This document shows, piece by piece, positions 3,181-64,000 of a stretch of DNA of 64,000 bases. The notes beneath the pieces were generated by a model. That model did not search any database. It saw only the letters and a program-made list of their open reading frames with translations, and was not told the DNA's origin. Where the stretch lies: contig MU260053.1 of the NCBI GenBank assembly GCA_020310875.1, positions 1,374,501 to 1,438,500 on the forward strand. Reading direction: 5' to 3'. Each line of letters begins with the position of its first letter. Positions within the stretch are counted from its first letter, which is position 1. The stretch comes from Ceratopteris richardii (Eukaryota > Streptophyta > Polypodiopsida > Polypodiales > Pteridaceae). The position numbers and the translations under genes are program-made.

Positions 3181-3229
3181 TTGTTTCTCTTCAAGGAGAT
3201 GTCCTTCCTTTACTTGTACTTCCTTTTCT

Positions 3230-6356: not shown

Positions 6357-7120
6357 TTACCACCTTGCTCCTGTGTGTCCATCCTCCCTAGCTCTTTCAA
6401 GTTTTTGCAGGTTTTGATTAAATGAAGCTTGATCATTTAATATTTGTATTGGTAATGTCTGTATGTCTTCCATTGAAAAAGTAAATCCTTCCATGTCTGA
6501 GTCATGAATATCCTGTTGATATTCCTGTTCTTCATTACTCAATAAAAAGATTAAAAACATTTTTTCATTTATTGTCAACTTAAGCTTCATTTTTTCAAAA
6601 TCCAAAATCACTTTACCTTGTTGGAGCCATGGTTGTCCTAGAATCAATTTTTCAGTCATCAAATGATCTGGCCATTCTTCACAATCTATTTTCATATATT
6701 CATCATTGAACCTAACTTTAATAGTCAGTGAAGACATGCTTTGTATCATTTGTCCCTCCAAAGTTTTGATAAAAGTTCTGCTTTTAGTTCTTTTTAGATT
6801 GAATTTATTCAACAAAGCTGAGCTAATCAGATTTACCTGTGCTCTTGAATCTATCAAAACTTTGATTTTTTCATCCTGAAAATGCATTGTCATAACAGGC
6901 AAATGTTCTTTTTCTTTCAGTGATGTTTCACACAAACAGACTTCCCTATGATCTTTGATTTTTCCTATCCTTTCCTTTGCTTCCTGTTGAGCCTCTTTTC
7001 TAATGTTTTCTTCTTCTTTTTTCCGATTTTGAGCTTGTTGTAATCTTCTCCATTCAGAAGTAGTTAATGGAAGATCATATCTTTTAACTCTACATCCACT
7101 TATAAAATTTGGCATGATCT
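6357..7120 (-). pseudogene. Element A, integrase tail plus second retropepsin-like domain
   Basis: The region opens with the end of the integrase C-terminal fold (motif PNFISGCRVKRYDLPLT, followed by a Lys/Glu-rich helix). About 80 residues on comes a retropepsin-like segment: hydrophobic strand, LIDS catalytic-loop position, a second strand pair (VRFNDEYMKIDCEEWP) and LILGQPWLQQG, which is the ILG-W signature of gypsy proteases. Element A also has an ordinary protease between gag and reverse transcriptase, so this is a second copy in an unusual place. Element C has the same arrangement at 50123-50818. Confidence 0.65.
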
Positions 7121-16109: not shown

Positions 16110-16938
16110 TGTCTGTTCTTGATCTTTGGAGTTGTCCTCTCCAATCATTTAGTATAAAGGATTACAAATACATCTTTATTTTTTCAATCTTGGAAGTATA
16201 CATGAGACCACAGCCCCTTCCATATGATAGAATCCAAGAAATAAGAGAAAACTGGCTGGATTTCTGAGAATAATGAAGATGAAGAGGAATTTCTAGGGTT
16301 TGGATTATCTTGAGCAAATCTCCATCATTTTCCACGTTCTTGGTGTCTAAAGCATGTTATTTTCTCAGCAGAATACAAGCATGAAGTCAAAACTTAAAAA
16401 TGATACCTGTAACCTTCAGACGAGACAATCGCGATTCTGTGAAAATAGACGATTTTCATCTCCAGCACCATCCTTCATCAATTTCTCACTCAACATATCA
16501 GTATTCAACTCTCTTCATACACATTCATCAGAAACACACAATAGAAGCTCACAAATCTCCATGGATACACATAGAATAGACTCACAAATAAAAGAAACCA
16601 CACAAAAGAAAGAAACATGATTTTCTGCAGGAAACTCTCTCTATTTGCTTGGACAACATGTAATACAATTAACCAACCCTCTCATAGTAGAGGAAGTTGT
16701 CTTTTATACATTTTCAGGTGTCCCTTTTCACACTTGAAATTTGGTCCTTTCCTCCTTTGATCTAAAAAAATGCTATCTAGGAGTTTCCAAAAATTTGAGA
16801 AAAATTACATAAGATTCTTCTCTACATAAGGAAGACTCTTCCTTATTTTTACATCAGTTGCATAAATATTTTTACAAGTTTCTCACATTTTACAATTGTC
16901 TCTCATAAAAAATAATCCAAAAAATACTTCTTCTAACA
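16110..16938 (-). repeat. Element A, 5' LTR
   Basis: 829 bases, TGTCTGTTC to TTCTAACA, flanked by the PBS at 16109 and by foreign sequence from 16939. Its last 365 bases match 651-1015. It holds an AATCGCGATT word like those in the leader. Confidence 0.9.
16701..16710 (-). promoter_or_regulatory. TATA box of element A 5' LTR
   Basis: The minus strand reads TGTATAAAAG, about 230 bases into the LTR. It is preserved identically in the other LTR. Confidence 0.6.
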
Positions 16939-23577: not shown

Positions 23578-25388
23578 CCTAGTATTGGGTCAAGGTTGGG
23601 AGATAAAGTCTTTGGTTAACCCTCAAAATCTTGTATTGCGTAGTAGAATGGTGGAGCTCTCAGCTGGTAAAATTGTTTTGCCTAAACACATGTCTTGAAG
23701 TTGAGTTACGCAATTTCCACTAAAATAGACTCCACATTTCATGGCATTCCAACCATAGCTTATATTTTAAGCATCTTAGTCTACCAAACCCTCTCATCAT
23801 GAAATATAACTTTCATTTTTTTCTCAATCGCATTCCATGGATGCTACATAAAAGTAAGCACCATCCCCAATGGGTCATCGGAATCCTTTCAACCAATGGT
23901 TTATTGCCGCTCATCTCTTTTAGATTTGAATTTGGGGTCACATATAACATCTGTTTTTCTTTAGAGATCGTTCTTCTTCCATGTTTTTTTAGCACACATA
24001 ATTGTGTAAATAATATCGAGAACCAAGAGATAAATTTGATGAGTTGTGCTCCCATTAAGTTATGAGTGCTAGTCAATAAAAAAGAAAGCAAGTATATTTA
24101 TTGCAAATAGTGGAGAGGTTATTTTAGTGAGTGCTCCATGTGATGTTCAGGCTCCTAACGCCAAAGGAAAAATTTGAAAAAAAAATGAAGGTATGTTTCT
24201 TCCCTACTTATAGGTTTCATGTTACTCACAAGTAAACGAAGACTAAGGAAAAATAAAAGAACCAAAGAATAAAAGAATGTTTTTTTTTTTTTGGAAAGCA
24301 AGAGAAAATGCCCTTTGTACACATATGTCGAGAAATTTCAAATAGAACAAGTCTCTTTTGGTTTAATGTGGTTATTTCCTCCCTCACTAGACTAATTCTT
24401 AAGTGCAATACATGGGTATGACTCTCCTTTATGCCTTGTGCATGACTGTGTAAGATGGCTCTATGCATGCATTCTCTTAGGTGAAATGTCACTCTCATGG
24501 TGCAAGGAGGAGAGGTCCCTAACTATTGTATCAAGGGTTCCATTGGCATGGCTTTACATGTTGTAAGATCTTACAGACACACATACACACAAAGTAAAAA
24601 TTTTGAAAAGAGACAAAAATAGAGTTGCACAGTAGATGAGATAGTACACAATATTGGGTGCAATCTCCCACCCCCATGCACTCGGTTGGACAAGTCTTCA
24701 CATTCCATGTATTTATAGTTTTTTATGAAGTCCAAATATAGAGGTTACAATGAGGGTAGCACTTGAAAAGCATGCATGAAAGTAAGTAAAATGTTTCTCA
24801 CTTTAACGATGAGCCTTAGCCTTTATTCACAAAAGTTGCATTCTACAATGATCCTTATCTCAACCACTATTTATATGACTTTTTAGAAAGAACCCTCTAC
24901 ATGGGTCTTTATTTACAAAATACATGGAAAATATAATTCTCTTATTTTTGTCCAAAATAATTCGAATAAGTCCACACCCATCCACAACCTCACAAACTTT
25001 CAACTGCTATATCAAAACACAAAGCACATTAATATCTCAATAATAAACTCCAATAATTCAACATTCCATAAGTGATAACATGACCCCATTTGAAAAAGCA
25101 ACTGACCTTAGTTGAAAAGAAATAAAACAGACATGGATGGCCAGTGACATATACCACATTGAACAAATATAAGCATGTTCCATGTAAAAACACATGCATG
25201 GAAATGTTTCTTGGAGGAGTTAAATTATTGTGACTGTGAATGATATGCAAAAATTAAGTGATATAATGAGGGGTCAATGAAGTCTTATGGATCCACTGAC
25301 ATTCTTCAATAGAATGATGTTTATGATATTGACTATCTCTATGTGTAGTGGCTACATCATGATCAATTATTTTCTCAAGAATTAAGAT
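23578..25388. other. Unassigned DNA with repeat pieces
   Basis: It holds copy 2 of the 98-bp repeat (24141-24237), a T tract near 24282, and one copy of an about 85-bp motif also found twice in element C (24433-24516). A minus-strand purine run (GCATGGGGGTGGGAGATT, about 24662-24680) and a possible TATA could mark the 3' end of the chromovirus whose integrase lies at 25389-26130. No LTR pair can be shown. Confidence 0.4.
24141..24237. repeat. 98-bp dispersed repeat, copy 2
   Basis: Matches 16939-17036 in the same orientation. Confidence 0.75.
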
Positions 25389-26130
25389 TTAATATTCTTC
25401 CTCAAGCAAAGGAGGATCATAAAGAATATGAATGAGTGGTAAAGCACCTTTGAATCGTTTTAGTTTTAGTAAACTTATATGAAAAGAGTTATGTATGTTC
25501 CAATCACATGGTATATCTAATCTAAATGAATTGTCATTGATCTTTTGAATAATGTGAAATGGTCCATAATAGCATGGTGCAAGTTTAACTTTAGAATGTT
25601 GTAGAATATTTTTCAAACATTGTTTAATGATACATAACCATACTAAATCATTTTCATTAAATCCTTTGGCTACCCGCTTCTTATTAACATTACGATTGTA
25701 ATGTTCTTGGTTTTTCTTAATGTGCTTGTGAACTTCATGAAGTATAGAAATGTGAGCTTGAGAAATAGAATTAGCCATAGGAATATCAGCTTGAGTGAGT
25801 GGCATGGGAGTGGGAAGCTTTTTACCATAAAGAATTTCAAAAGGTGCATGGCCAGTAGTTGTATGTGTTGTGTTATTATAAGAAAATTGAAGTAATGGTA
25901 ATTTCTCATACCAATTAGTGGGACTATCTAATGAATAACAATGAAATAAGTCAATAATAATGATATTTGTAGCTTCAATTACTTTCAAGATGAAATGTAG
26001 AACTAAAATCTATTTTAGAACCAAAATGTTGAACTAATGCAACCCAAAAAAGATTGTATAAATGGAAATCATGATCAAACAACATGACTTTGGAAAAACA
26101 CGATAAAATAAGTTGACCACCCATAAGGCC
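25389..26130 (-). pseudogene. Chromovirus-like gypsy integrase fragment
   Basis: The C-terminal half of a Ty3/gypsy integrase: the segment NWYEKLPLLQFSYNNTTHTT, then TGHAPFEILYGKKLPTP, a helical stretch, the GPF-I-KI-D-SFRLDIP fold (GPFHIIQKINDNSFRLDIP) and NIHNSFHISLLKLKRF. This last motif is typical of the chromovirus group, which is a different lineage from elements A, B and C. Its weaker N-terminal part extends to about 26130. Nothing else of the element is clear. It is old and broken. Confidence 0.82.
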
Positions 26131-39883: not shown

Positions 39884-40524
39884 TGTTGGCAGTAGCCAGA
39901 GGGACAGACGACGCAGAAGCATGTGAAGGTGGATCACAATGAAGTAGTGGGGAGCCAGGCATATTATTTTTTCAAAGAAAGATGTTTTAAAATACTTTTC
40001 CAAAACCACTAATAGTGATTTTCATCACTCTTGTACCATATGTAACGTAGAACAACCACTTTTGTAATTCATAGCTCCATTTTGTGCAAGCCAAGGAGTC
40101 CTCGAGCTTGAGGATCTTAGGTAGAACGAGCCTACCAATTTTAGATCTCGTTTACCCCTTCAAATAGCACCTAGAACCTATTTTTTAACTATGCCGGTCA
40201 CTAGATGTGAAACCGGTCAAAACTAGTCTAAAAACTATAAAAAGAGCTAGAGAGCTCATTTTTGAGGTTGGCTAGTGTGAGCTTTGAGCTATTTTGAGCT
40301 TGTAATTGAGATCTTGAGTAATAGAGTCTATTTTCCTACCTTGCATTGTGTCTTGTTTGTCTCTTACATGTGTGTGTATGTGTGTGTGCATCTCTATGCT
40401 TCTCACCGTCACTCTCACTACATCTCACGTTCACGATCTTCATAGCACTCCTATCTCTTCCGCGGATTGACATTAAGGAGGTGGAGCTTCTTAACGTGGT
40501 ACTTGCCATGGTGCTAGAGCAACA
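39884..40524 (+). repeat. Element E, 3' LTR
   Basis: TGTTGGCAGTAGCC to CTAGAGCAACA, 641 bases. It is a diverged relative of the LTRs of element C read on the opposite strand: shared blocks are the segment before and after the TATA box, the GTGTGTGT run and the CCGCGGATTGAC region. No 5' LTR of E is in the window. Confidence 0.8.
40235..40244 (+). promoter_or_regulatory. TATA box of LTR E
   Basis: CTATAAAAAG followed by GAGCTAGAGAGCTC, the same box and flank as in the LTR of element C. Confidence 0.6.
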
Positions 40525-40531
40525 GCCACTG

Positions 40532-41127
40532 TGTAGCTCAAGTGTATGCACCACCTCCTTTACTTGTCAATCCGCAGAGACGTGAGGACCGGTATGAAGA
40601 CCATGAGCAAGTGAAGGCACAAGTGCGTGAGTGAAAGCACACAAACATGCACACACATACACACAAACGCGCACAAGGCAAGATCAAAGTGAGGAACAAT
40701 GGAAGGACTTGATTACACAAGAGTTCTCTTACAAAAGCTCTATTCACTAACCAGCTAACCTCAAAAATGAGCTCTCTAGCTCTTTTTTTAGTTTTTTGAG
40801 TAGTTTTGGCCCTGTCCAGACCTAGTGTCCGGCCTAGTTAAAAATTAGGTTCCAAGGCTTATTTGAGTGCTCAAATGAAGTCTAAAAAATATGAAAATTG
40901 GTAGGATGATACTTCTAATAATCCTCAAGCTTGAGGGGTCCTCGGCTTGAACAAAATGGATTTACAAAAATAGAAAATGGTTTTTAGTGATGAAAATCAT
41001 TGTTTTTGTAGGGGATTCTTCTAAAAATTTGACATGTACTTCTTGGAGCTCCCTACTTGCTCCCTCTTCTTGTGTGTCCACTTCGTTAGTGCACTTTTGT
41101 GCTTGTCCTTGACCTTGAGCGTCAACA
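40532..41127 (-). repeat. Element C, 3' LTR
   Basis: TGTAGCTCAAG to GCGTCAACA, 596 bases, matching 58281-58868 apart from short length differences. It contains a CA-rich run near 40640-40675. Confidence 0.93.
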
Positions 41128-41142
41128 CTCCCCCCCTTCTCG
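41128..41142 (-). other. Element C, polypurine tract
   Basis: The minus strand reads CGAGAAGGGGGGGAG directly before the LTR. Confidence 0.85.
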
Positions 41143-41607
41143 ATTATGTCATCCCTGACAGACCCTTGTTGTAATGGTTGTTCCATGTAGTGCTTTGAGA
41201 GGTAGTGTCCATTCTCTAGGAACAAGAGCCATCTAACTTCCAGATGTGGCAGGGTTGGTTGTTCGATTCTTCATTTATCATTGCAAGCCTTTGCAAGTGG
41301 CAGCCCCTTGGTATGTGCTTCTTCCTTGGATTCCAGCATGAATGTGTCATTGTGAGGCTCCATTGATGTCCTCTAGATCCTCCAAAGGAGATGTTCATAC
41401 TAATCATGCCAAGTACTCGTAACCCATAATGAATGATGGGTAAGTGTGTTCGTGCATGGGTTGAGGAAAATATGTGCCTTGTGCATGGCCGTGTAATGTA
41501 GCCCTATGCATGCTTACTTGGGGAATGCATTGGAAGAAGTATGGTGCAAAAATTGGGGGTCTTGAGCTAAGTGCTCAAGGTTATGCCGATGAAGCGGTTT
41601 CCTAATC
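41143..41607 (-). other. Element C, 3' terminal region
   Basis: A weakly coding region between the Argonaute fragment and the polypurine tract. The end of the frame, YMEQPLQQGSVRDD, is related to the end of element E's 3' frame. 41477-41560 holds one of two direct copies of an about 85-bp motif that bracket the Argonaute fragment. Confidence 0.5.
41477..41560. repeat. 85-bp motif, copy left of the Argonaute fragment
   Basis: TTGTGCATGGCCGTGTAATG to ATGGTGCAAAA. Similar copies lie at 42347-42425 and 24433-24516, all in the same orientation. Confidence 0.65.
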
Positions 41608-42240
41608 TATCATGGTTATGGTGTTGCCAAAGTAGAGATACTTACCATTGTGAAGGGTCGATTGACGTTTATCTCTTCGTGTTGTAAACCCGGCATTTGT
41701 GATGGACCATTGTTGATGAATGTCCATGTTGGTGGTCCACTGATGAAATTTTTTGAGTGCTTGGTCCCATGTCCTCTCTTCAAAGCAACATTGGCCAAAT
41801 ACTGAGAATTGAATTTCTTTATATTCCTGGACAAACAACATTGGGTAACTACACCAAGATTAGTTTCACATATTCTCTTTAGCTCACCATAAGTAGGAGT
41901 CTTCTCATCCAGTAATGATTTTCAGGTACCAAACTACCCCTTGCAGATATCTCCTTGGATGCTCTCGTGCATAGAGTAGTTAAGCATCGCTCAAGTTGCG
42001 GACCTTCAAGATCTTCCCTCCTACCATGGTAAGGGGAAACAATATTTGTGGATGTCATGTTCATGCCAAGTGCTTGACATCTACCAGATAAGGCAGCAAT
42101 AATATCATCTGCTAGCCGAGACACACTTCTATCCAAACTGATAAATGCCCAGTAATCAACGGCTCCACCTTCGCATAAGCATGACGCATTCATGTTCCAT
42201 GAGCCAAACCTGGGAACAAGCTCTTCCCTTCTTTTTTGTT
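41608..42240 (-). pseudogene. AGO: Argonaute gene fragment (MID domain to start of PIWI) inside element C
   Basis: Argonautes bind small RNAs; the MID domain holds the guide 5' end and PIWI is the slicer. The minus strand from about 42235 gives PRFGSWNMNASC, EGGAVDYWAFISLD and GRCQALGMNM, the order and spacing of the linker-2/MID start of plant Argonautes. It then gives YGELKRICETNLGVVTQCC and QYLANVALK, the signature at the MID-PIWI join (plant AGO1: YGDLKRICETELGIVSQCC and QYMANVALK). The similarity stops after VALK, before the PIWI catalytic residues. An AT-rich, AG-ended stretch precedes the fragment (about 42240) and a GTAAGT word follows it (about 41647), so intron borders may have come along. 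Same strand as C's pol. It is a host-gene remnant and cannot make a working Argonaute. The subclass is undecided; the AGO1 and AGO7/AGO2 groups are both possible. Confidence 0.8.
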
Positions 42241-42346
42241 TTTAAATATTTGGAACAATGTCACAAACAAGAAGACAGATGTAAGTATCAGGAAAAATAG
42301 TTGACATATATCAATGTGCTCTTCTGCATGGGACTCTCACATGTGT

Positions 42347-42425
42347 CTATGCATGGCCATGTAATGTGGCCCTATATTAATGCATACTTGGGAAATGCAT
42401 GACCTGAATGGTGCAAAAGATAGGG
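42347..42425. repeat. 85-bp motif, copy right of the Argonaute fragment
   Basis: TATGCATGGCCATGTAATGT to ATGGTGCAAAA, a direct copy of 41477-41560. Confidence 0.65.
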
Positions 42426-42469
42426 TTGTGCAAGGAGCACATGGTTGTCGCTCGTCGAGGCTTTCAATG

Positions 42470-42747: not shown

Positions 42748-44001
42748 TGTTGAAGAATCACTCACGAATTTGACGTACAGACAAAGAAAGATAACAAAAA
42801 GCAGAATCAAAGTATCCAGAAAATCAAAGCCTTAATGAAGGGTCAAATTCACAATCGCAATGTACAGCGCAAAATCTTCCAGAATCAGAGTTTGTTAGAG
42901 TTTGTTACACCGGATCAAAATTGTATATAAAGAGAGACGAGGACAGAAAGACAGGGAGTGATAGAAGAGCGTGTAGCACGTCGGTTTGAATCGAGCGCAT
43001 ATAGAGATTAAGAATAGGTTTAGAAGACGCCAGAGATCGCGTAAGAAAAGATGAATAACAGAAACCTGAAATGTCAGGTATTCATCTGAGAGAGATGGTA
43101 TTACGAAACTACTCAGTATAGGAGAGTTTCTATAGCTTGATCAAGAAGAGGCCAAGCTAGTTTGTACACATCTTCTCTAATAGAAAACACATGTTCATGT
43201 GGAAGTTTTGCATGCATTCTTCGTATGTGAAGGAATCTGAGTATTTTCATGTTACGGTATAAAGTTAGTTAACAGTTACAGTTCGTTTAGTAAACATGTT
43301 TCCGGTACCTTCTCTGTAAAGGAATGTTTCGGTCAATTATAGTTTTCTCAGTAAATGAATTTTTCGGTCAGTTACAGTTTTCTTAGTAAACGTATTTTTC
43401 GGTAGAACAACGAAGTATATCTCGCAGAATAAATTAAAGCTTTGTATGAGAGATAGCTTATCTCATAGCTAGACATCTCTACTATCAGTTCATCAAAGAT
43501 TTTCGGTGGAATGGATATGTACACACAGTACAAAGTCTGACCGGAAAGAGACATTCTGAACCGGAGAAGTTTTTTCTTTAAACTTCAGAAAGAGTTCATT
43601 CAGTGAAGGAAGTTCACGCATCACTTCCTTACTTCTTGTATATTCACTTGAAGTGATCACAAATAGAATCGCAGTTGATTCCGGTAAGATTCCGATATAA
43701 TTATGGTGACAGTCTAGTGACAGTCCGGTGAAGTTCCAGTGGAATTTTTTAGTAAATTTAAAACGCAGTCTCATACATTTGAGTGACAGTAATTTCGCTA
43801 AGCTACCGTTGATTATGGAGGTGTTCTAATATCGTTCTAGCTTAGCACTTTTTTGGTGGCGCAGCAAATTCCGCAGGCTTGACAAGGTTCAAGTCTTTGC
43901 CGCGTCGACCATAACAAGTGGTATCTGTGCTATAATACGGAAAGTGGTATCGTAGCCAAAGTACTACCATCAGTGGTATCAGAGCGAAAGTATCACCAAC
44001 A
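42748..44001 (+). repeat. Element D, 5' LTR
   Basis: TGTTGAAGAATCACTC to ATCACCAACA, 1254 bases. Its last 85 bases hold three of the five PBS-like AGTGGTAT repeats. Confidence 0.96.
42924..42933 (+). promoter_or_regulatory. TATA box of element D 5' LTR
   Basis: TATATAAAGA, about 180 bases into the LTR. An identical box is at 48484-48493 in the 3' LTR. Confidence 0.6.
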
Positions 44002-44016
44002 AGTGGTATTCAGAGC
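44002..44016 (+). other. Element D, primer binding site
   Basis: AGTGGTATTCAGAGC, a variant of the initiator Met PBS TGGTATCAGAGC, lies right after the LTR. The exact word TGGTATCAGAGC occurs 29 bases earlier, inside the LTR end. Confidence 0.75.
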
Positions 44017-44109
44017 CGTGAGATCCAAGAAGTGGTACCAGAACAGAAAGATTCTAAAGAGCAGAAAGACTCTCAAAGAGCAAACGGAAGTAACAGAAAC
44101 AAGAAGATC

Positions 44110-44975
44110 ATGGCAGATCATGTCCAAATTGAGAAATTGGACAGAGATAATTATCCCGCATGGGTAATGCGCATGGAAGCCTTACTTATGAGTAAGGACT
44201 TAATGATGTATGTGACCGGAGAAGAAAAGAAGCCGACTTTCGAAGATGATAGTCAACTGGAAAAAGAAGAATTAGAAGCCTTGAAGCTGTGGCAGAAGAA
44301 AGATGCAACGGCAAGAGCTTACATTTATAATACCGTTACAGACCATGTACTACCGCACATTAGAGGTCTGGAGAAAGCGGAGGACATATGGAGTGCGTTG
44401 GAAGATCATTTCCAAAATACTACGAAAGCTAGGAAGGCTAGCTTATGGTCCGAATTCACAACGTTCAAAAAGAAGTCGAATCAAAGCATTAGTGAGTACG
44501 TTACTAAGATGAAGGATCTAGCAAATAGACTTGGATCCATAAATGAAGATGTCGAAGATCACAGATTGATAGCACAACTGCTAATAGGTTTGAGAGGAGA
44601 TGAAAGGTGGAAACCTTTCATACTCTCAACTGAATTGTCTTTAAATCATTTTGTACCAGATTTAAATCAGTTTCTTGGTTTGATGCTCACATATGAGCAA
44701 GACCTGAAAGGAGATGGAGAAAAAGGACAAAGTTCTGCAATGTACATGAAGAACAAGAAGAAAGGAGACAAAGGTAAGTCAAAAGAAGAAGAAGAGTCGA
44801 GTTCTCAGGCTTATTATGTAAGAGGTAAAGGCACCGGCAGAGGAAGAGCAAGAGGTTTTGGAAGAGGAAGAAGTTGCCAGAATATCAACAAGAAGGCTTG
44901 CTGGATTTGTGGATTAAGTAATCATCTGGCTCATGATTGTTGGCACAATCAACAAGGATCAAATCAAAATTAGAA
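44110..44975 (+). pseudogene. Element D, gag
   Basis: Starts MADHVQIEKLDRDNYPAW, the copia gag N-terminal motif (KLDRDNY-W---M). It continues with WKPFILSTELSLNHF and a basic arginine/glycine-rich stretch (GRGRARGFGRGR), then the CCHC knuckle CWICGLSNHLAHDCW. It packages the element RNA. Confidence 0.88.
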
Positions 44976-45147
44976 TAGTAATAGCAGAGGCAGAAGCGGA
45001 AGATATCAGAGTAACTTTCAAAGAGGTAGACAGAATCAAAAAGGAAGCTATGGTAGAGGTGGAGCAAGAAGTTGGGGACAAAATCAATCCTACAACACCA
45101 GCTACAACAAATACGCAAATGACACACAGAATGAAAGTCATACATCA

Positions 45148-46435
45148 TTGATGATGAACTCAATCAGCACATCAGATAACGAAGATCTAAAGGTATTTTA
45201 CATTGATTCTGGATGTTCTAATCATTTGTCAAGAAATATAGAACTGATGTCAGAATTGGAAAAAGGCAGTTCCAATCATACTGTTCAAACAGGTGACAAT
45301 ACGAGACACAGTGTACATTCAATTGGAAAAGTGAAATGTAAGAGTGGAGCAGATTTGCTAACCAATGTTTTATATGTTCCGACAATACCTAAAAATTTGA
45401 TAAGTGTGGGACAGATAGTTGAGAAAGGTTTTCGGGTGAGATTTACAAATGAAGGAGTATTTGTAGAAGATCCTGAGAATGGATATCATCAGATCGTCTC
45501 TGGTAAGAAAGAAGGTAGACTCTTTACCTTAAGAGTACAAGGGAACATTGGTCAAGCGTTGCTCACACATGGTGAGAAGGTGATTACACAACTTGATCTC
45601 TGGCATAAGAGATTAGGTCATTTCAATGAAAAAGGAATTAAAGCTATGATTGCAAATCAGTCAATACTGGGATTACCGAATGTACAGAACCAACATATGA
45701 TTCATAAGTGCGAAGCATGTCAGATGGGAAAAGCCCACAGGTTACCTTTCTAGAAGAAAGGATTCAAACATGATGGAGTACTTGAACTCATTCATACAGA
45801 TGTATGGGGTCCAACAAAAGAAGGATCAATCAGCGGATCGAGGTATTATGTTCTTTTCATTGATGATGCAACAAGATGGATAAGTCTTTATGTTTTGAAA
45901 GAGAAATCAGAAGTGTTTGGAGCTTTCAGGCATTTTCATGCATACGCTGAAAGACTTACAGGTCGAAAGCTTAAGAGACTGAGGTCTGATTGAGGGGGAG
46001 AATACTTCTCCCGAGAGTTCAATGATTATCTTTGGAATGCAGGTATTAAGAGAGAAATAACCTGCACGTATACACCACAACAAAATGGTGTAGCAGAAAG
46101 AAGGAACCGAACTCTAGTTGAGTTTGCACGAGCTATGCTAAAGGAAAAGGATTGTCCAAATTATCTTTGGGCTGAAGCTGTAAATACAACTACATACTTG
46201 GTAAACAGATTACCGTGTATAGCTTTAGACGGAATGACCCCTTACGAAGCTTGGTCGGGGAAGAAACGAACACTTGATCATTGCAAAGTGTTTGGATCAA
46301 TTGCTTATGCTTATGTACCGTCACAACTCAGACATAAGCTTGAACCAAAAGCAGAGAAATATATGTTCGTCGGATATGATGAAAAGCACATGGGTTACAG
46401 GTTATGGAGTCCTCTAACAAAATAGTTTATTGTTT
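45148..46435 (+). pseudogene. Element D, protease and integrase
   Basis: The copia-type protease has FYIDSGCSNHLS (catalytic Asp-Ser-Gly). Then comes the GAG-pre-integrase zinc region (LDLWHKRLGHFNEKGIKAM, CEACQMGKAHRLPF) and the integrase core (ELIHTDVWGP, the QQNGVAERRNRTLVEFARAM Glu motif, NYLWAEAVNTTTYLVNRLP, FGSIAYAYVPSQLRHKL). Integrase precedes RT, which defines copia. Confidence 0.88.
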
Positions 46436-46734
46436 CTAGAGATGTTACATTTGATGAACAGAAAAGCTGGTATGCAGATCAGAGTCCGACAACAGAAGAA
46501 TTTGAAGAAGAGGTAAGAAGAAAAGAGAAAGGAAAATCAATTGTGCAGGTGAATAGAGATGAAGACTATATGCAGGCAAGTACGTCCAGGATCGAATCAG
46601 GTATGAGAAACGAAGGTGAAGAAGTGTATTCAGACACTTATGAAGAATGTGAACCAAGAAGGTCAAGCAGGACTAGAAGACAACCAATAGGTATTCTTAT
46701 GATACTTCGTATATAACTCAAAAAAATTATGCAT

Positions 46735-48190
46735 ATATGGTCAAAGATGATGAAGAACCTCAGAACTATGATGAAGCTAAAGGCAAGAAGCAATGGGAAG
46801 AAGCAATGGAAGAAGAGTTCAGCGCACTGGAGGAGAACAAGACATGGGAACTTGTTCCTAAACCAAATGGTAAGAAATGGGTTTTCAAAGTTAAGAAACT
46901 TGCAGATGGAAGGATAGCCAGATACAAAGCTAGACTGGTTATCAAGGTCTATGCTCAGACGCATGGCATAGATTACGACGAGACGTTTAGTCCGGTGGCA
47001 AAGATGTCAACCATAAGGACAGTGATTGCTATAGCAGCATCAAAAGGATGGAAGCTAAGTCAGCTGGATATCAAGAATGCATTTCTGAATGGATATATAT
47101 CATATGAAGTTTACATGGAACAACCTGAAGGGTTTGTAAGTTCCAGATACCCAAATTTTGTTTGCAGATTAAGAAAAGCACTTTATGGACTGAAGCAAGC
47201 TCCAAGAGCTTGGAATTACAGACTTGTGAAATATCTCAATGAACTTGGATACCAAAGTTCGAAGGCAGATGCAAGTTTATTCATCAAGAAAATAGAAGAA
47301 GGTATGATCTACATTTTTATTTATGTGGACGACATTATAATTACAGGAACCTCAGATGAAGGAATTAAAGAAGTAAAGAGATTGCTTGAAAAGGAGTTTA
47401 AGTTCAGTGATCTAGGAAAGTTATCCTACTTTCTTGGAATGGAAATCACATACACAGATCATGGTGTATATGTTTTGCAAGAAAGGTATCTCCTAAACTT
47501 ACTGAAGAAGTTTAATATGGAGAATTGCAGAGAAGCTTCAACACCGCTTGAAGTAAACCATAAACTCAGTAAATATGATGGAGCAGAGTTTAAAGATATG
47601 AGGAAGTATCAGTCGTCAGTGGGAATTCTAATTTATGCTACACTAACACGACCGGATCTTAGTTATGCAGTGGGAGTTTTCTCACAGTTCATGCATTGTC
47701 CGAAGGATCAACATTGGGTTGCAGGACATAGAGTTCTTAGATATATCAAAAGAACTATAAAAGAAGGATTATATTATCCTTATACGTCAGCTATAAAGCT
47801 GAGAGCATTCAGTGATTCAGACTGGGTAGGAAGTCAAGATGACAGAAGATCAACACATGGGTATATGATATACCTAGGAGATAAGCTAGTGAGCTGATGT
47901 TCAAAGAAACAACACACAGTGGCTTTATCATCAACAGAAGCCGAATATAAAGGACTTGTAGAAGCAGCCAAAGAAGTAATATGGATGCAGACCTTGTTCA
48001 AAAGCATGGGTATTGATCAAGGTATACCTATCATACATGGAGATAATATGAGCTCGTTGTATCTTGGAGCAAATCCAGTATTTCATGCAAGAACAAAGCA
48101 CATAGAGATTCAGTATCATTTCCTAAGGGAAAAGGTAATGGAGAAGGAGATAGAAATAGTATACACTCCAACAAAAGATCAGATTTAGAT
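46735..48190 (+). pseudogene. Element D, reverse transcriptase and RNase H
   Basis: Copia RT: KTWELVPKPNGKKWVFKVKK, ARLVIKVYAQTHGIDYDETF, LRKALYGLKQAPRAWNYRLV, active site YVDDIIITG, FSDLGKLSYFLGMEI. RNase H: SDSDWVGSQDDRRSTHGY, LSSTEAEYKGLVEAAKEVIW, RTKHIEIQYHFLREKV. About 480 residues in all. In sequence it is closer to usual plant copia elements than fragments F and G are. Confidence 0.9.
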
Positions 48191-48297
48191 ATTTTGACAA
48201 AAAGCTTGGATGGAACAAAGACAAGCAGATTCAAAGAAATGGAAGGTATAAAAGAAAGAAAAATATATGAAGGACAGGAAGAGTCAAATTAGTGATT

Positions 48298-48307
48298 GAG
48301 GGGGAGC
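48298..48307 (+). other. Element D, polypurine tract
   Basis: GAGGGGGAGC directly before the 3' LTR start TGTTGAAG. Confidence 0.85.
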
Positions 48308-49555
48308 TGTTGAAGAATCACTCACGAATTTGACCTACAGACAAAGAAAGATAATGAAAAGCAAAATCAAAGTATCCAGAAAATCAAAGCCTTAGTGAAG
48401 GGTCAAATTCACGATCGCAATGTACAGCGCAGAATCTTCCAGAATCAGAGTTTGTTAGAGTTTGTTACACCGGATCAAAACTGTATATAAAGAGAGACGA
48501 GGACAGAAAGACAGGGAGTGATAGAAGAGCGCGTAGCACGTTGGTTTGAATCGAGCGCATATAGAGATTAAGAATAGGTTTAGAAGACGCCAGAGATCGC
48601 ATAAGAAAAGATGAATAACAGAAACCTGAAATGTCAGGTATTCATCTGAGAGAGATGGTATTACGAAACTACTCAGTATAGGAGAGTTTCTATAGCTTGA
48701 GCAAGAAGAGGCCAAGCTAGTTTGTACACATCTTCTCTAATAGAAAACACATGTTCATGTGGAAGTTTTATGCGCATTCTTCGTATGTGAAGGAATCTGA
48801 GTATTTTCATGTTACAGTATAAAGTTAGTTAACAGTTACACTTCGTTCAGTAAACATGTTTCCGGTACCTTCTCTGTAAAGGAATGTTTCGGTCAATTAT
48901 AGTTTTCTCAGTAAACGAATTTTTCGGTCAGTTACAGTTTTCTCAGTAAACGTATTTTCCGGTAGAACAACGAAGTATATCTCGCAGAATAAATTAAAGC
49001 TTTGTATGAGAGATAGCTTATCTTATAGCTAGACATCTCTACTATTAGTTCATCAAAGATTTCGGTGGAATGGATATGTACACACAGTACAAAGTCTGAC
49101 CGAAAAGTTCTGAACCAGAGAAGTTTTTTCTTTAAACTTCACAAAGAGTTCATTCAGTGAAGGAAGTTCACGCATCACTTCCTTACTTCTTGTATATTCA
49201 CTTGAAGTGATCATAAATAGAATCGTAGTTGATTCTGGTAAGATTCTGGTATAATTACGGTGACAGTCTGGTGACAGTCCGGTGAAGTTCTAGTGGAATT
49301 TTTCAGTAAATTTAAAACGCAGTCTCATACATTTGAGTGACAGTAATTTTGCTAAGCTACCGTTGATTATGGAGGTGTTCTAATATCGTTCTAGCTTAGC
49401 ACTTTTTCAGTGGTGCAGCAAATTCCGCAGGCTTGACAAGGTTCAAGTCTTTGCCGCGTCGACCATAACAAGTGGTATCTATGCTATAATACCGAAAGTG
49501 GTATCATAGCCAAAGTACTACCATCAGTGGTATCAGAGCGAAAGTATCACCAACA
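48308..49555 (+). repeat. Element D, 3' LTR
   Basis: 1248 bases, the same ends as the 5' LTR, followed by TCTTG of the target duplication. Confidence 0.96.
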
Positions 49556-50122: not shown

Positions 50123-50820
50123 TTATATTGTAATGCATTGGTCATGTACCCAAACTTGAAGAAGTTGACTTCTTAGGTTTAAATTGACTGCATGGTCATA
50201 GATCCAATCTTGACCCAAGATAAGTGGTTCGGTGAGGTCCTCATCTTGACATACTAGCATTTTGACGGTCATTGGGACATCCTGAAGGTAGATGGGAAGC
50301 TCCACCTTGCCCAAACAAGGGGTTTCCGCACCTCCCACACCTATGAGATAGGCTTCTATGGGCTTGATGTTCAAGTGCACGTCTTGGCAATATGAAAATC
50401 GAACTGTACTAGTTGTTGCACCTGAGTCAATTAAGGCTCTCACAGTCCTAACACTCTTTCCTTGTCCTAACTCTATGGTCACAAAGGGGCGTCGGTCGAT
50501 TATTTGAGAAGTAATTATGCCCGATTTTTGGCATATGTCCATGTGATATTTTGGGGCTTTCGGGTTGACATCTAGGCCTAGTCGCCTTAACTTATTTTTC
50601 CTAATGTGCTCTCTGGCCTCTGCCTGTGCCTCTTCTCTAACTTTTAACTCTTCTTCTTTTCGCTTCTTAGCAGTGTTCAGTCTCATTAGCATATCCTCTG
50701 TAAGAGGCTCTTCATATAGCTTGACTCTGCATCCACTAATATAATTTGGCAAGATATCACCTTCTAAAGTGGCCAATCGAACCATAGATGCATGTTGCCG
50801 CTCGTAGCCTCGTCTCACCT
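50123..50820 (-). pseudogene. Element C, integrase tail plus second retropepsin-like domain
   Basis: It opens with the integrase C-terminal end (GDILPNYISGCRVKLYEEPLT, as in element A) and a charged helix. A retropepsin-like fold follows: VTIELGQGKSVRTVRALIDSGAT with a DSGAT catalytic loop, then the AYLIGVGGAETPCLGKV strand and LILGQDWIYDHAV, the ILG-W closing motif. The first protease of the element is at 54490-54790. Here the catalytic loop is better kept than in element A, so the domain is unlikely to be a chance resemblance. Confidence 0.72.
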
Positions 50821-51900
50821 AAGCGTTCTAAATCAAAGATCCTGGAGGACAACTCATGTCCATTCCACTCATGCTCTTGTGCTACCTTTAAAGCTGGGAT
50901 TAGGAAATCTAATGGTAGCACAACGTTCTGGCCAAAGACCATTTGAAATGGGGTGGCATTGAGTACCATTTCGTAGGCAACTCGATAAGCCCAAACAGCA
51001 TGATGAAGTTGTTTGTCCCAATCAGAGCGTTTATTATTTACCAATTTTGTCAATACATTACATAGGATCTTATCTGTGCTCTCTGCTTTTCCGTTAGCTT
51101 GTGGGTGATAGGGGCCGACTTCTTATGTATCACCAAGAATTCTTGGAGAAGATTTTGAATGACTTCATTCAAGAAGTGTGTACCTCTATCATTGACTAAC
51201 TCTATTGGTAATCCATATCTTGTGAACACGTTCTCGAATAAGAACTTAGCCGTAGTCTGAGCATCATTCTTTGTGGTGGCTTTCACTTCTACCCACTTGG
51301 TCAGGTAATCTGTGGCTACAATAATGTATTCAGCATGGGAGTTTCTAGCTAGGGGTTTAATAGGACCTACAAAGTCTATACCTCATTTTGAAAATGCATG
51401 TCCTCCCATCATTGGTCTCAAAGGCATCTCATCTTTTCTTATCGGATATTGTGCACGTTGACATGCGTCGCATTTCTTCACATAGGTATGTGCATCCATA
51501 TGAAGAGTGGGCCACCAATGTCCTGAGAAGAGAATGGTCTTGATTACTCGGTCAGGACCAAAATGTCCACCTGCAACACCACTGTGTGTAGTTTGTAAGA
51601 CCTTTAAATAATCTAATTCATGAACGCATAGTCTTAAGTTACCATCTTTGCCTCTACGATATAGGTTTTCTCCTACTAAGGCATAGTCCTGAGCCTCTTG
51701 CTCCATGCTTCTTCTTCTTGCTAGACTAGCCTCTTTGTGTAATGTCCCTAATCTCATGAATTCTACCAATGGAGCACTCCAATCACGAATTAACGACACT
51801 TGATAAAGGGTAGCATGCTCCACTGGGGGTTTTTCTTGGCAGCCTGGACAATTCTTAATCACTCATGTATTTCTTTATCCATACTAGGCCAACACACTCC
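50760..51900 (-). pseudogene. Element C, integrase
   Basis: H2C2 zinc region (THSGVAGGHFGPDRVIKTIL, CDACQRAQYP), core with ELVNDRGTHFLNEVI, AYRVAYEMVLNATPFQMVFG, and the C-terminal LERLGETRLRAA stretch, all closely parallel to element A. A second H2C2-like word (CPGCQEKPP) lies upstream. Confidence 0.82.
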
Positions 51901-52309: not shown

Positions 52310-53570
52310 CTAACAACAACTTCAAAGTCATATTCCATTAGTAAGGGGAACCATCTTACTAAACATCCTGTATTGCAAGGTTTATTGACCAAATACAATA
52401 AGGCTTGATGATCACTAAAGAACTTGAATTTGTTGGCCAATAGGTAGTGTCGAAACTTCTTCACAGCATATACCATCCCTAAGCCCTCTCGCTCTGTTGT
52501 GGTTGGATGCATCCACATGGACATGGACATTTCCTTCACATGTGGGTTGTGCTAGCACACATCCTATGGCGCGATTGGATGCATCCACATGGACATGAAA
52601 TGGTTTAGTCCAATCAGGAGTGGCCAGTATTGGTGCTGTGCACAAACGTCTCTTCAACTCATTGAAGGAGTGTTCACATTCATCGTTCCACTCAAAATTT
52701 GTCAATAAGGCATAAAGAGGTCTAGCTATGATCACATACATGTGGATAAACCTATGGTAATATTCACTATGGCCCATAAAGGCTTGTACCTCTTTAACAT
52801 TCCTTGGCCTCGGCAACTCCGCCATAGCTTTGACTTTTTCCTCATCTGTTGATATTCCATTCTTAGAAACAATGTGACTTGAGATTTTACCTTTTCGAAC
52901 CATGAACATGCACTTTTCTAGGTTCAGACAAACTCGATATTCTCTGCACTTATTGAAGATCTATCTAAGCTCAAGGATGTGGTGTCTTCTTACTTGGGAA
53001 TGAGCACATAAATCGTCCACATATACTTCTAAGCTCTTTCGCAAGAACTCTTTGAAGACATGACACATAAGCCTTTGGAATGTTGCAGGTGCATTGGTGA
53101 GCCCAAATGGCATCACACGAAATGCAAAAATTCCCCACTCTATGGCAAAGGTCGTTTTGTGCTGATCTTCTGGGGCAATAGCTACTTGGTTCTAACCTGA
53201 AAATCCATCAAGAAAGCTATAAACTTCCTTGCCTACCACATGCTCCAATAGGAGTTCCGTGATTGGAAGCGTATAACTATCTCTGATCATAGCGGCATTA
53301 ACTTTTTAAGGGTTAGTACACACTCGCAACTTCCCATTCTTCTTAGGTACCACTACAATGGGGGACACTCATTCAGTATGCTCAATCTCATAGATAAATC
53401 CAGCTTCAATTGGCCTGTTAATTTCTTCTTTTATTTTAACTGCATAAGTGTCATTATATGTGTAGGGCTTTTGTTTGGTGAGCTTGGCATTAGTGGTCAT
53501 GGGAATTGTATGAGAGCATATTCTTGGATCTACCCCCTTCAAGTCTCTATAGTGCCATGCAAACACGTCC
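52310..53570 (-). pseudogene. Element C, reverse transcriptase and RNase H
   Basis: The pre-RT motif MFAWHYRDLKGVDPRICSH is followed by AGFIYEIEHTE and, leftwards, RT core segments matching those of element A. These include the SHIVSKNGISTDEEKVKAM motif and RNase H with HVHVDASNRAIGCVLAQP and REGLGMVYAVKKFRHYLLANKF. A short duplicated stretch with HVHVDASN lies at the RNase H start. It is older and more decayed than element A. Confidence 0.8.
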
Positions 53571-55080
53571 CTATATTCCCTTCATAGAGCTACAAGCTCT
53601 ACTTCTTCTTTTGCACTTAGGTCATCTCCTATGTACATACATCTCTCTTCATTTCCTTCAATGGTTACTACAATTTTTTTGGTCTTTTCTTTGTTATCAT
53701 ATGCTTCTCCTATGATGCTCTCTCTCTTAGGCATTTGTACCAAAATTTTTTGATCTTCCACTTCAGATTTCTTGAAGTTTTCTGGTACTTCGAACAATGA
53801 TTCCTCCTCTTCTTCTTTCACAACTTCTCTTTTCTTTTTCTTTTGACTGCTCTCACTTCCATCCTTTGAATTTACCGTTTTAATGCTTGTGAGAGGTTCT
53901 TCTTCTTTTTGCGTAAATACTCCTATATCTTCTAGATAGTGCTTCTCAGAATTAAAGCAACTATCCATCACAATGGACTCTAGATCGTCATCATTCTCTT
54001 CTTCTTCTATGAAGTCATTAGGGTCGCATTCTTCTAGCAAGGGCTGACACATGAACACTGAAATATCATAACCCTCCTCATTACAATGAGTGTCCACTGT
54101 TCTTCATTGACAGTAATGTCCATGGTGGCTAGGATTTTTGCCCAACCAAGAGGCTCGAATTCCTCATCTGGAAATATCATCGGTGTATAGACTGGGTCTT
54201 TAACTGGTCTATCCCCTTGAGAATTTCCTTCTTCTCTTGCTTTTAAGCATTTTTCCTCTTCCTCTGCGACCTTGCACATCCACAAGTGAGTATCTTCATG
54301 CAGCCATGATGGATCAAGTGAACTTTGAGAATGCACAGAGATAGAATCCTCTTTCGCTTTGTGGATAGGATTCCACTGTAGGGGTGGTACATCTCTGAAG
54401 GTGTAATCCTTTAAATTGACATTGGTGGTGACCCCTAAGTGTTGTAAGTACAAGGAATTGGTTCCCCAATCCTGTACTATTTGCAATTGTCATAGGAAGG
54501 GTCTTCCTAGGATCATCTCATAGACATTATTTTTCTCAAAGTCACATATAGCAAATGTATGTTCAAACTCTACACGACAGGTGGTTAGAGTTATCCCTTC
54601 TAGCAATCCTAGAGGTCTTTCAAAATGACCGTCTCCCATTTGAAGCTTCATTCTAGTTGGTCTTAATGTGGGTTTGCCCCATCGCTTCCACAAGGAGGTG
54701 GTCGCAATAGCAACACCAGCGCCTGAATCTATGATTGCTTTGGTTGTGTAACCTTGGTAGATGATTGGAAGATAAGTATTACCTTCTTCACCCTCACACA
54801 TGTCCCCTATTTTGTCTAGCGGTATCTCTAGAACTTTTTGCTTAGAGCTTGCTTTTGGCATATTGGAATCAAGTTTTGGGACATGATCCTTCACATGATT
54901 CCATAGCTCAGGTTTTGCTTTGAGCAGCTCTTCTATAGTGAGAAGACATTGAACCTTAGTGTTCTTCACGACATCAGTGTTCCTTGGGACCACTGAGTCT
55001 TCATGTCTCACCAGTATTATGGGAGCTCTAATCTGAAGAGATTCAGATTCCCATGGGCCAGTGAATTGTGGCAACTCTTG
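53570..55080 (-). pseudogene. Element C, protease and linker
   Basis: First retropepsin: AIIDSGAGVAIATTSLWKRWG to EMILGRPFL. After it comes QIVQDWGTNSLYLQHLG and an acidic linker of about 300 residues with SLFEVPENFKKSEVEDQKILVQM, matching A's linker (DVPANFKTYEVEDRLLLKI). Confidence 0.8.
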
Positions 55081-55349: not shown

Positions 55350-56760
55350 GTTGAGCCTATGGAGGTAAAGAAACCTGTGGCTTGTTTACCAATTGCTCTA
55401 ACCTCTCTATTATGCCCTGGAAATGCAAATTCGGTTTGACGGGGTTTGTCTGATTGAACTTTTGACTAGTCTTGAGCATAGCTTGAGCTAGTTCTACCAT
55501 TTTCATGCACATTTTTGTCCGTTCAATCTCTAAATCTGCTCTAGGATAACTCTTGTCTAGGTTTGCAGTTGTTGGCCCTTCTTGAAGTCGAGCCTGGTAG
55601 GCCTTGAACATCATGTCCATGCCTTCTGGGGTTGGATCTGCAAGAACAAACCTTGGTTGTGGTTTATTTACAATGGGTGGTGGGATGGAATGAGGTGGAG
55701 TGGATGGAGTTTCGTCATGCGAGGGATTTTGAGATGCAATGTCTTCTATTTTTGTTTTTGCTTCTTTCAAGCTTTCTTCTAGCTCTGATAACTTTTTATT
55801 CCACTTGCTATTGGCCTTCTTTCTGGTATCTTTCCATGTTCTTGTTTTCCTCTTACTAGGCTCTCCTGATTCACTCGACTCCGATTGCTCTGCTAGTTTA
55901 TCTTGTTTTGATGCTTGTGCTCTAGTGACAATGTGTATAGGAGCCACATTATTGCTACTTGAACTTGAATCGACCACTAAGCCTACCACATTAATGGGTG
56001 TAACCTTAGGCGCACTAGAGGGGTTTCTTGGACAATCTCTGGGGAGGTGATCTTTGCCACACTCAGGACAAAAAGCTTGTATTGTGATGTTCTATCCTTG
56101 TCCTAGAGTTGGTGAGTGGGGACATTCACGAATGAAATGGTCACCCTCACACCTAAAACATGATCCTCTAGGGGCTTGTGGTCTCATTTGTCTCAATTGG
56201 GGCCTACGGTTAGGATTTGTGTACATGACATTGGAGTATTCTGGCTCCCAATTTTGTTCCATAGGTGGTGCCTCATATTGATATGGATAAGTCTCACTAT
56301 GTTCAGGTGACTCTATGTAATAAGCATGTGGACTACCTTCATGGAAGTAGTTTGAACTATGAGCATGAGAGTCATTCTCTGAGATCAGTGGGGTCACTGG
56401 CACGAATGCTCTATTAAGGTTCTCTTCTGCCACTGCATACTTAACTGGAATTACATTGACATGCACTGGTGGTTGGTTTTCTAGGATTGATTGTGGCATA
56501 TATGATGACTAATATTGTTTTTGTGGTCTATAATATGGCTGTTGGTATTGGCTCTGATACCTACCTTGTTGGTAAGGTTGCTGATAATTCTGTCTAATAG
56601 CCTGTCTATTGTATGGACAATCTTGAGTCGTGTGATTCGTGTATTTTCTCTCAGTAGTGCAATATGGAGCATTCCTTTCTCTCATGTTCTGGTTGTGCAA
56701 TGGGCATGCATTAGCCATGTGGTCACCTCCACAAGTATAACACTGACACCTACAGGTTTC
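55350..56760 (-). pseudogene. Element C, gag remnant (nucleocapsid part)
   Basis: Contains zinc knuckle CFRCEGDHFIRECP, a partial second knuckle near MANACPLHNQN and APYCTTERKYTNHTTQDCPYNRQ (compare YCTLERKWTNHTREDCFYNTQ in A), and a Lys/Glu-rich tail. The capsid part found in A is not seen to the right, so C has lost most of gag or always lacked it. Confidence 0.75.
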
Positions 56761-58280: not shown

Positions 58281-58868
58281 TGTAGCTCAAGTGTAAGCAC
58301 CACCTCCTTTACTTGTCAATCCGCGGAGACGTGAGGACTGGTATGAAGACCATGAGCAAGTGAAAGCACACAAACATGCACACACATACACACACACACG
58401 CACAAGGCAAGATCAAAGAAAGGAACAATGGAAGGACTTGATTACACAAGAGTTCTCTTACAAAAGATCTATTCTCTAACCAGCTAACCTCAAAAATGAG
58501 CTCTCTAGCTCTTTTTATAGTTTTTTGAGTAGTTTTGGTCCGATCCAGACCTTGTGTCCGGCCTCGTTAAAAATTAGGTTCCAGGGCTTATTTGAGTGCT
58601 CAAACGAAGTCTAAAAATTATGAAAATTGGTAGGATGATACTTCTAATACTCCTCAAGTTGAAGGACTCCTTGGCTTGAAAAAAATGGAGTTACAAAAAT
58701 AGAAAATGGTATTTACAATGGTTTTTAGTAATGAAAATCATTATTTTTGTAAGGGATTCTTTTGAAATTTTGACATGTACTTCTTAGAGCTCCTTACTTG
58801 CTCCCTCTTCTTGTGTGTCCACTTCTTTGATGCACTTTTGTGCTTGTCCTTGACCTTCAGCGTCAACA
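58281..58868 (-). repeat. Element C, 5' LTR
   Basis: TGTAGCTCAAG to GCGTCAACA, 588 bases. A TATA box (minus CTATAAAAAG) lies at 58511-58520 and a CA-rich run at 58370-58402. Confidence 0.93.
58511..58520 (-). promoter_or_regulatory. TATA box of element C 5' LTR
   Basis: Minus CTATAAAAAG followed by GAGCTAGAGAGCTC, as in LTR E. Confidence 0.6.
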
Positions 58869-59750
58869 CACCGATTGCCATAATCTCTCTAGTAGTTCTT
58901 TGGAATGTAACTCTCATTTTACTGAGTTTGTTTGATTAAAAAGTTGACTTTCCTTGAACATAGCTTGAGCTATTTCTACCATATTTGCCCATAGCTTTGT
59001 CCTTTAAATCTCTAAATCCAACCTAGGATAGCATTTATCTAACTCAACTATGTTTGGCCCTTCTTGAAGTCAAACCTAGTAGGTTTTGAACCGCATGTTG
59101 TGTCTTATTACACTCTTGGAGAATTTTGCGATTAATGTATCTTCTATGAGCTATATGATATTCCTAAATTGCTCTTGACGCAAGGGTTGAAACCAAGTTA
59201 GGGCTATATTCTTCAAGGTCAACCCAAAATCCTCCTATTGAGTGAACAAGCCCTCCACTTGTTCCACCCTCAACACTTGCTTAAACTCAACTACACGATC
59301 ATAGGGATCTCTTCTATCCTCAAAATAGTTCTTCATGGATTTCACCAATTGAGTAGGTCTCAATATTCTCATATGCTCTCTTGGCCTAGGTAGAGGGAAT
59401 TCATCCATACCTCTATGATTCCTATATCCTCTGGATCTTTCTTGTTTAGTTCTATCGATGTCTAGTCTCAATCTTTCGCCTCCTATCATGTGCACAAAAT
59501 GTACTTCGGGTTTCTCTTTCAACACTCCTAGGACATGAGAAGATCTTGCTCCATTTTGAGTGTGAGGATTAGTAGACTTGTGTAAGGGGAAAATGTGTTC
59601 ACCCTTCCAAGTGTATGTGTGTCTCCTTTGCTCTATAGCAGAATACATCCTTTTTGAAGTGTTTTCCAAATAAATAACCTTTCTTGGAACATCACGATCC
59701 TTGAAATCATATGTGATGATGCAATCTACATCACTAGGTTTCTCTCATTT
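58869..59750 (-). pseudogene. Element H, right part: gypsy gag
   Basis: 58869-59100 matches the gag linker of element C (55390-55640). Further right is a capsid-like region with FPLPRPREHMRILRPTQLVKSMK and EFKQVLRVEQVEGLF, related to RPYQVAKCMK and EFRQLIRAEEVED in A, and YDFKDRDVPRKVIYL (A: AQFKDGSYEDRQGCVYIF). It continues the element whose protease part is at 28400-29505. It is old and heavily broken. Confidence 0.72.
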
Positions 59751-62789: not shown

Positions 62790-63359
62790 TTAGAGCCCTG
62801 GACATGTTCTTTTAGCTTCTCTATTGCGGAATATCATCCCCAAAAATCGTGCCTTTGCAAAATAATTTGTTGCAAAATGCCCAATGACAGCATCAGTTGC
62901 TGTGCTGCTCCCTACTTTCTCCACACCCGTGGAGAGTATACACACATGACTAGCTTCTAGAACAACAATGATACTTGACAAACAAAATCTATGTGCCAAT
63001 GCTTCAGCAATCTCTCTCGTTAGACGTTCCTGAACTTGAAGCTTATGGCCCAAAGACTTTACAATCTCTAAGACGTTGTTCCTGTTCGCATCCTTGGAGC
63101 CAGCATCTGATGAAAGATACCCGATATGTGCTCTTCCATAGAAGGGCAAAAGATGATGCTCACACAATGAGCAAAATGGGGCATCAAAGTGAGTAAGAAT
63201 AAGACTACTAAGACCATCTTCCATATGACTCAATGGTGAATCCCCGTTGCTAATTACCCTTGAAAGGGTGTGCCCATTGCTGGCTTTGTGCATCCATGTA
63301 CTGCCACCATTCATACCATTATCTACCCCATCCATGCTCAATCCCTTTTCTCCCCATCC
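62790..63359 (-). CDS. GCH1: GTP cyclohydrolase I, last exon (C-terminal domain)
   Basis: The enzyme converts GTP to 7,8-dihydroneopterin triphosphate and formate, the first step of the pterin branch of folate synthesis; in plants it is cytosolic and made of two tandem cyclohydrolase-like halves. This exon encodes a linker of about 50 residues and then the second half: APFCSLCEHHLLPFYG (zinc Cys and His, catalytic His), HIGYLSS, KLQVQERLTREIAEAL (Gln of the GTP pocket), EASHVCILSTG (catalytic His and third zinc ligand Cys), EKVGSSTATDAVIGHF and a short C-terminal tail ending in TAA. The length and end match plant GCH1 proteins. There is no in-frame ATG at the left of the frame; TTGCAG at 63360-63365 is a good splice acceptor, so the exon likely starts at 63359. 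The frame is intact. Earlier exons, with the first half, are not visible and should lie beyond the right edge. Confidence 0.88.
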   Translation of the reverse strand, partial: GWGEKGLSMDGVDNGMNGGSTWMHKASNGHTLSRVISNGDSPLSHMEDGLSSLILTHFDAPFCSLCEHHLLPFYGRAHIGYLSSDAGSKDANRNNVLEIVKSLGHKLQVQERLTREIAEALAHRFCLSSIIVVLEASHVCILSTGVEKVGSSTATDAVIGHFATNYFAKARFLGMIFRNREAKRTCPGL

Positions 63360-64000
63360 CTGCAATCAGTAATTCCACATGCTTCTCGTCAATCATCAAA
63401 TTCATTCTTCAAGTACCTGAAATCAAATGCATTTTCCTGCCAAATAGAACCACATTAGTGCATCAAAATCGACCATTTTCGGGGCTAACATACTTCCCTC
63501 TTCTTATTTGCGAAGTCGTCCTCGACAAGCCACTACATGCTGCAATAAAATCCAAACAACCATGAACATGTCAATTTTCAATTGGTTCACATACCTTTTC
63601 ATCGAGCCGTCACTTCCACTGAACCTGCACTCATCGAAGCTATTTGTGCTAAAAAAATCACTCATGAATACATACAAATCAGTCACTTCCAAAATGATCC
63701 AAGAACATGCACATATATGCAATTCCATTTCAGCCATGCATCCATTTGCTCATACATTCCCTTATGGAAAATGGTCTCAACCAAAATAACACATGCATAC
63801 CTTTCCTTGAATTACACATGCAACTACCATTGCGGAAAACAGAAAAGAAAATACCGAACTGAACAACGACAACTGAAATGAATCCAATAGGACATGCGAC
63901 ATACCCAAAATGCATACCCCATTATTGCATCTACTATTCGCTATGTACGATCATTCCATGACTAGACACTTCCGAAGAATCCCCCTCGTCGTCCTACAAA
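63360..64000 (-). other. Probable intron of the GTP cyclohydrolase gene
   Basis: It ends in an acceptor-like TGATTGCAG at 63360. No stretch matching the conserved mid-protein region of plant GCH1 was found, although splice-like words occur (for example AAAAG followed by GTATGTG near 63598). A small exon here cannot be excluded. Confidence 0.5.

Follow-up and report, generated by a model that had tools for sequence, protein, structure and literature searches.

We analysed a 64,000-nt window of the Ceratopteris richardii genome (assembly GCA_020310875.1, contig MU260053.1, forward-strand positions 1,374,501 to 1,438,500; coordinates below are those of the window), in which a piece of an Argonaute gene lies within a long terminal repeat (LTR) retrotransposon of the Ty3/gypsy type, here called element C. 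The Argonaute fragment occupies positions 42217–41778 of the minus strand, is about 430–440 bp long and intron-free, and comprises the end of linker 2, the MID domain and the first residues of PIWI, as judged from motifs, Pfam profiles and structure matches. All five motifs quoted in an earlier note on this DNA were located on the minus strand: PRFGSWNM at 42214–42191, EGGAVDYWAFISLD at 42172–42131, GRCQALGMNM at 42085–42056, YGELKRICETNLGVVTQCC at 41891–41835 and QYLANVALK at 41804–41778. The frame changes between the third motif and the fourth, which places a frameshift at approximately 41945–41895; it is the single frameshift in the fragment, and there are no internal stop codons. When the two frames were joined by an X and compared with solved structures, the best match was to residues 532–675 of AtAGO10 (E = 5.9e-20), followed by AtAGO1 (9e-19), AtAGO5 (5e-14) and, more weakly, AtAGO2 (1e-11). 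Over the first part of the fragment 22 of 91 residues are identical to AtAGO10, and over the second 26 of 47. Pfam ArgoMid matched the first part with E = 9.8e-6 (26.2 bits, slightly under the curated cut-off of 27.5 bits), and Pfam Piwi matched the second part with E = 1.9e-8 (34.3 bits, above the cut-off of 28.9 bits). The fragment is thus genuine Argonaute sequence, with a match far beyond chance, and its assignment in the note to the linker-2/MID start and the MID–PIWI join, for which these two profiles had been suggested as a check, is borne out.

In both the Pfam and the PDB comparisons the similarity stops exactly at VALK (41778), ahead of any slicer residue, and no PIWI catalytic residues were found in the fragment. 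Given the frameshift and the end of similarity at VALK, the fragment does not have what a functional Argonaute protein would have, namely PAZ, MID and the PIWI catalytic residues in an open frame. The frame continues for 54 codons past VALK without Argonaute similarity and ends in a stop (41616–41777, minus strand, beginning RGHGTKHSKNFISGPPTWTFINNG); this continuation is possibly the 3′ open reading frame (ORF) of element C itself. Of the interval 41608–42240 that the note had assigned to Argonaute, 42217–41778 therefore stands, while 41777–41608 is not recognisably Argonaute. Within the comparison set of AGO10, AGO1, AGO5 and AGO2, the MID homology appears closest to the first three, and the donor may be either AGO5-like or AGO7-like. 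With a single frameshift and no internal stop, the fragment probably owes most of its distance from AtAGO10 to the donor gene, which would be a divergent Argonaute, rather than to decay.

The boundaries of element C enclose the fragment. On the minus strand, the 5′ LTR (58281–58868) begins with TGTTGACG and ends with CTACA, and just inside it lies the likely primer-binding-site region, AAATTTTGGGGCCGTTGCC. The 3′ LTR spans 40532–41127 on the same strand and is adjoined by a polypurine tract, GAGAAGGGGGGGAG, at 41141–41128. The element is flanked by CGGTG and CAGTG, consistent with a 5-bp target site duplication (TSD) with one transition (four of five positions matching). The LTR pair differs by 37 substitutions over 580 aligned sites, a Kimura two-parameter (K2P) distance of 0.067. 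The pol domains follow the gypsy order of protease, reverse transcriptase (RT), RNase H and integrase, all on the minus strand: a retropepsin-like protease at 54490–55074 (Asp_protease_2, E = 2.3e-4, just short of the curated cut-off), RT and RNase H at 52415–53599 (RT_RNaseH_2, E = 2.6e-17; RT motifs MPFGLTNAPATFQ and YVDDL), and the zinc-binding and core domains of integrase at 51050–51862 (Integrase_H2C2, E = 1.6e-12; rve, E = 9.4e-7). The Argonaute fragment is in sense orientation with gag-pol. Upstream of it, a gap of about 0.27 kb reaches back to the end, near 42486, of the last open stretch of 3′ coding sequence; on its downstream side, about 0.65 kb separates it from the 3′ LTR. LTR pair, TSD and polypurine tract, all enclosing a piece of a host gene, were counted in favour of capture; the note's placing of the fragment within the LTRs, in sense orientation, holds.

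The reading frames of element C contain many breaks, including several stops in the RT frame. A 6.8-kb Copia element is nested on the plus strand at 42748–49555 (LTRs 42748–44001 and 48308–49555), between pol and the Argonaute fragment. Its LTR K2P of 0.032 and its perfect 5-bp TSD, TCTTG, indicate a later insertion into element C; the fragment had been placed correctly between pol and the 3′ LTR, but the Copia element has since come between it and pol. With pol broken, the LTRs at a K2P of 0.067 and Copia inserted, this copy is dead as an element, although its RNA could still feed silencing. The density of lesions in the fragment, about one per 440 bp, resembles by eye that of the broken pol. 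Because element C is dead and the fragment frameshifted, no protein role is expected, and we infer that the fragment encodes no working protein. Beside the 5′ LTR, positions 58870–59098 are 72% identical to the element's own 55388–55616, and the insertion site of element C was apparently gag sequence belonging to a related element. Directly adjoining the 3′ LTR is an inverted piece of the element C LTR (40072–40489, 69% identical) which, if active, would drive transcription into element C antisense to the Argonaute fragment. Downstream of the integrase, element C also carries a second retropepsin-like domain with the motif ALIDSGATTS (50123–50818, minus strand; gag-asp_proteas, E = 6.6e-5, below the curated cut-off).

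A direct repeat of about 130 bp brackets the Argonaute fragment. Copy M1 lies upstream of it at 42318–42447 and copy M2 downstream at 41452–41596, both on the minus strand; their local alignment scored 71, compared with at most 27 in 50 shuffles. A third copy on the minus strand (24408–24497), with which the repeat ranges from about 90 to 130 bp around the core GCATAGRGCYAYMTTACAYRGYCATGCA, is situated about 0.9 kb downstream of an integrase remnant identified by an SH3_Tf2-1 domain in the ORF at 25389–25988, as is found at gypsy-type integrase ends. The position of this third copy suggests that the repeat is probably retroelement sequence and not Argonaute. Between M1 and M2, 17 of 114 sites differ (K2P 0.166), a larger share than the 37 of 580 that separate the two LTRs (Fisher p = 0.004), in a test that is small and presumes equal rates. 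An LTR pair is reset to identity at every transposition. Since M1 and M2 have diverged more than the LTRs, the event behind them, either a duplication or a recombination between two related element RNAs, most likely came before the most recent transposition, and the fragment appears to have been bracketed already when element C last integrated.

Plant LTR retrotransposons commonly capture pieces of host genes. The fragment in element C is real, and accidental capture is the most likely account of it, in agreement with the simple transduplication considered in the note, which fits the Argonaute identity, the place within the LTRs and the sense orientation. We consider it likely, on balance, that a spliced Argonaute transcript was captured by template switching before the last transposition and that the fragment is now dead sequence. 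During reverse transcription in a virus-like particle, the enzyme would have left the element RNA for a spliced host Argonaute mRNA packaged with it, and later returned to an element RNA; such a double switch could leave the arrangement M1–fragment–M2, with a copy of an element repeat on either side of the Argonaute sequence. The resulting DNA would have integrated as part of an ordinary LTR element, after which element C would have decayed neutrally and the fragment would have been split from pol by the Copia insertion. Abnormal template switching is an accepted route by which foreign sequence enters LTR elements (PMC13317346), and genes captured by retrotransposons are mostly in sense orientation to gag-pol (PMC7264820). 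Searches of viral contigs gave no relative of either the fragment or the integrase and no match to the start of the element C LTR, and prokaryote genomes gave no match to the fragment.

How far the lack of introns points to spliced RNA depends on the type of donor. In Brassica napus, Argonaute groups 1, 4, 5, 6, 8, 9 and 10 have 16–23 introns, while groups 2, 3 and 7 have only 1–5 (PMC5081487). A spliced source is favoured because no intron occurs in about 430 bp and the best matches are AGO10, AGO1 and AGO5; an mRNA source would hold if the donor was of the AGO1/5/10 type. Several observations weigh against this reading. At its 5′ edge the fragment has a sequence resembling a splice acceptor, TTGTTCCCAG/G, and at 41645 there is a donor-like ATG/GTAAGT (slashes mark the splice-like boundaries); these could mean that genomic DNA was copied. 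A donor of the AGO2/3/7 type, with just 1–5 introns, could have supplied an intron-free stretch of genomic DNA. That capture preceded integration is judged from the divergence of M1 and M2 over a short stretch in one element copy. The splice-like sequences and the low intron number of AGO2/3/7-type genes also speak for an alternative that we regard as unlikely but worth weighing, in which genomic DNA was copied as filler into element C after its integration, during repair of a double-strand break, or the fragment was brought in by a DNA transposon (Helitron or Pack-MULE). A search of about 140 bp at each end, however, turned up near the edges, besides the M repeats, a single 9-bp inverted match and not one direct repeat of ≥7 bp, and the M repeats seem to be of greater age than the integration. 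The same search yielded no convincing DNA-transposon ends around the fragment.

Among captured genes, one from the silencing machinery is a special case, since small RNAs made from the element could turn on its own controller. TART-A carries a fragment of nxf2 and produces PIWI-interacting RNAs (piRNAs) antisense to nxf2, UBP1b is targeted by small interfering RNAs (siRNAs) from Athila6, and a methyltransferase is targeted by a microRNA derived from a rice CACTA element (PMC7785250). According to a maize survey that PMC13317346 cites, captured gene fragments, including those in Sirevirus LTR elements, serve as siRNA reservoirs able to silence their donor genes. These precedents make it reasonable to ask whether an active element C family carrying the Argonaute piece might have eased its own silencing by lowering host Argonaute expression through its small RNAs, yet they are no evidence for this copy. 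We think such counter-defence very improbable here: a single broken copy was seen, with no sign of a family carrying the fragment, a sense fragment would require synthesis of the antisense strand before host mRNA could be targeted, and arbitrary genes are commonly captured. The full form of the idea, a once-active gypsy family with many fragment copies whose small RNAs repressed the host Argonaute, would be a plant LTR parallel of TART-A/nxf2 that hits the effector itself, and we give it slighter odds still. Hardly more probable is that the fragment represents an Argonaute-derived accessory domain conserved in this retrotransposon lineage, where it would serve as a MID-only decoy that binds small RNAs. 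The Y and K of YGELK, the Q of TQCC and the K of VALK are retained; by correspondence with human AGO2, these would be residues that line the 5′-phosphate pocket of MID in other Argonautes. At least five LTR-retrotransposon consensuses of Asparagus officinalis contain ArgoL2 (PMC9289625). A conserved decoy is difficult to reconcile with the frameshift in mid-domain, with the end of similarity ahead of PIWI proper, and with the lack of any Argonaute match among the tested ORFs of the related element A in the same window. Should several copies turn out to carry the fragment, small-RNA and degradome data that already exist could address counter-silencing directly; if the copy is single, it is an ordinary capture event.

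Element A, whose LTRs at 650–1015 and 16573–16938 have a K2P of 0.039, is a gypsy element diverged from element C and, like it, contains a second retropepsin-like domain downstream of the integrase (6357–7115, minus strand). The two domains are 27% identical (E = 2e-22), with Pfam matches below the curated cut-offs. In both elements this domain comes in addition to the usual protease upstream of RT, and the DSGA motif is kept in that of element C. One narrow literature search found no retropepsin duplication downstream of integrase. Between pol and the 3′ LTR of element A there are about 3 kb of nearly continuous coding sequence (1137–4270, minus strand), partly coiled-coil-like, for which a Pfam search gave no match. 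Near the right end of the window, a single open frame at 62790–63365 on the minus strand matches the Pfam domain of GTP cyclohydrolase I (E = 1.4e-28) and may belong to a gene or a pseudogene. Scans of the window against Rfam and for tRNA genes found nothing.

Element C is a further case of gene-fragment capture by a plant LTR retrotransposon, a known phenomenon. Argonaute-derived sequence in a plant gypsy element also has a published precedent: ArgoL2, an Argonaute linker domain, in LTR retrotransposons of Asparagus officinalis (PMC9289625). Both cases place an Argonaute-derived domain within gypsy-type elements; element C, in contrast, holds the end of linker 2, MID and the start of PIWI in one frameshifted copy, and the likeness noted is one of domain content. 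The captures described for maize Bs1 and in rice and sorghum surveys (PMC7264820, PMC13317346) also involve part of a host gene in sense orientation within an LTR retrotransposon, whereas in element C the donor is an RNA-silencing gene and a diverged direct repeat brackets the fragment. The resemblance to TART-A (PMC7785250) is that each retroelement carries, near its 3′ end, part of a gene from the pathway that silences it. TART-A, however, is a long interspersed nuclear element (LINE) of flies with many fragment copies, antisense piRNAs and expression data, while element C is known from the sequence of one copy.
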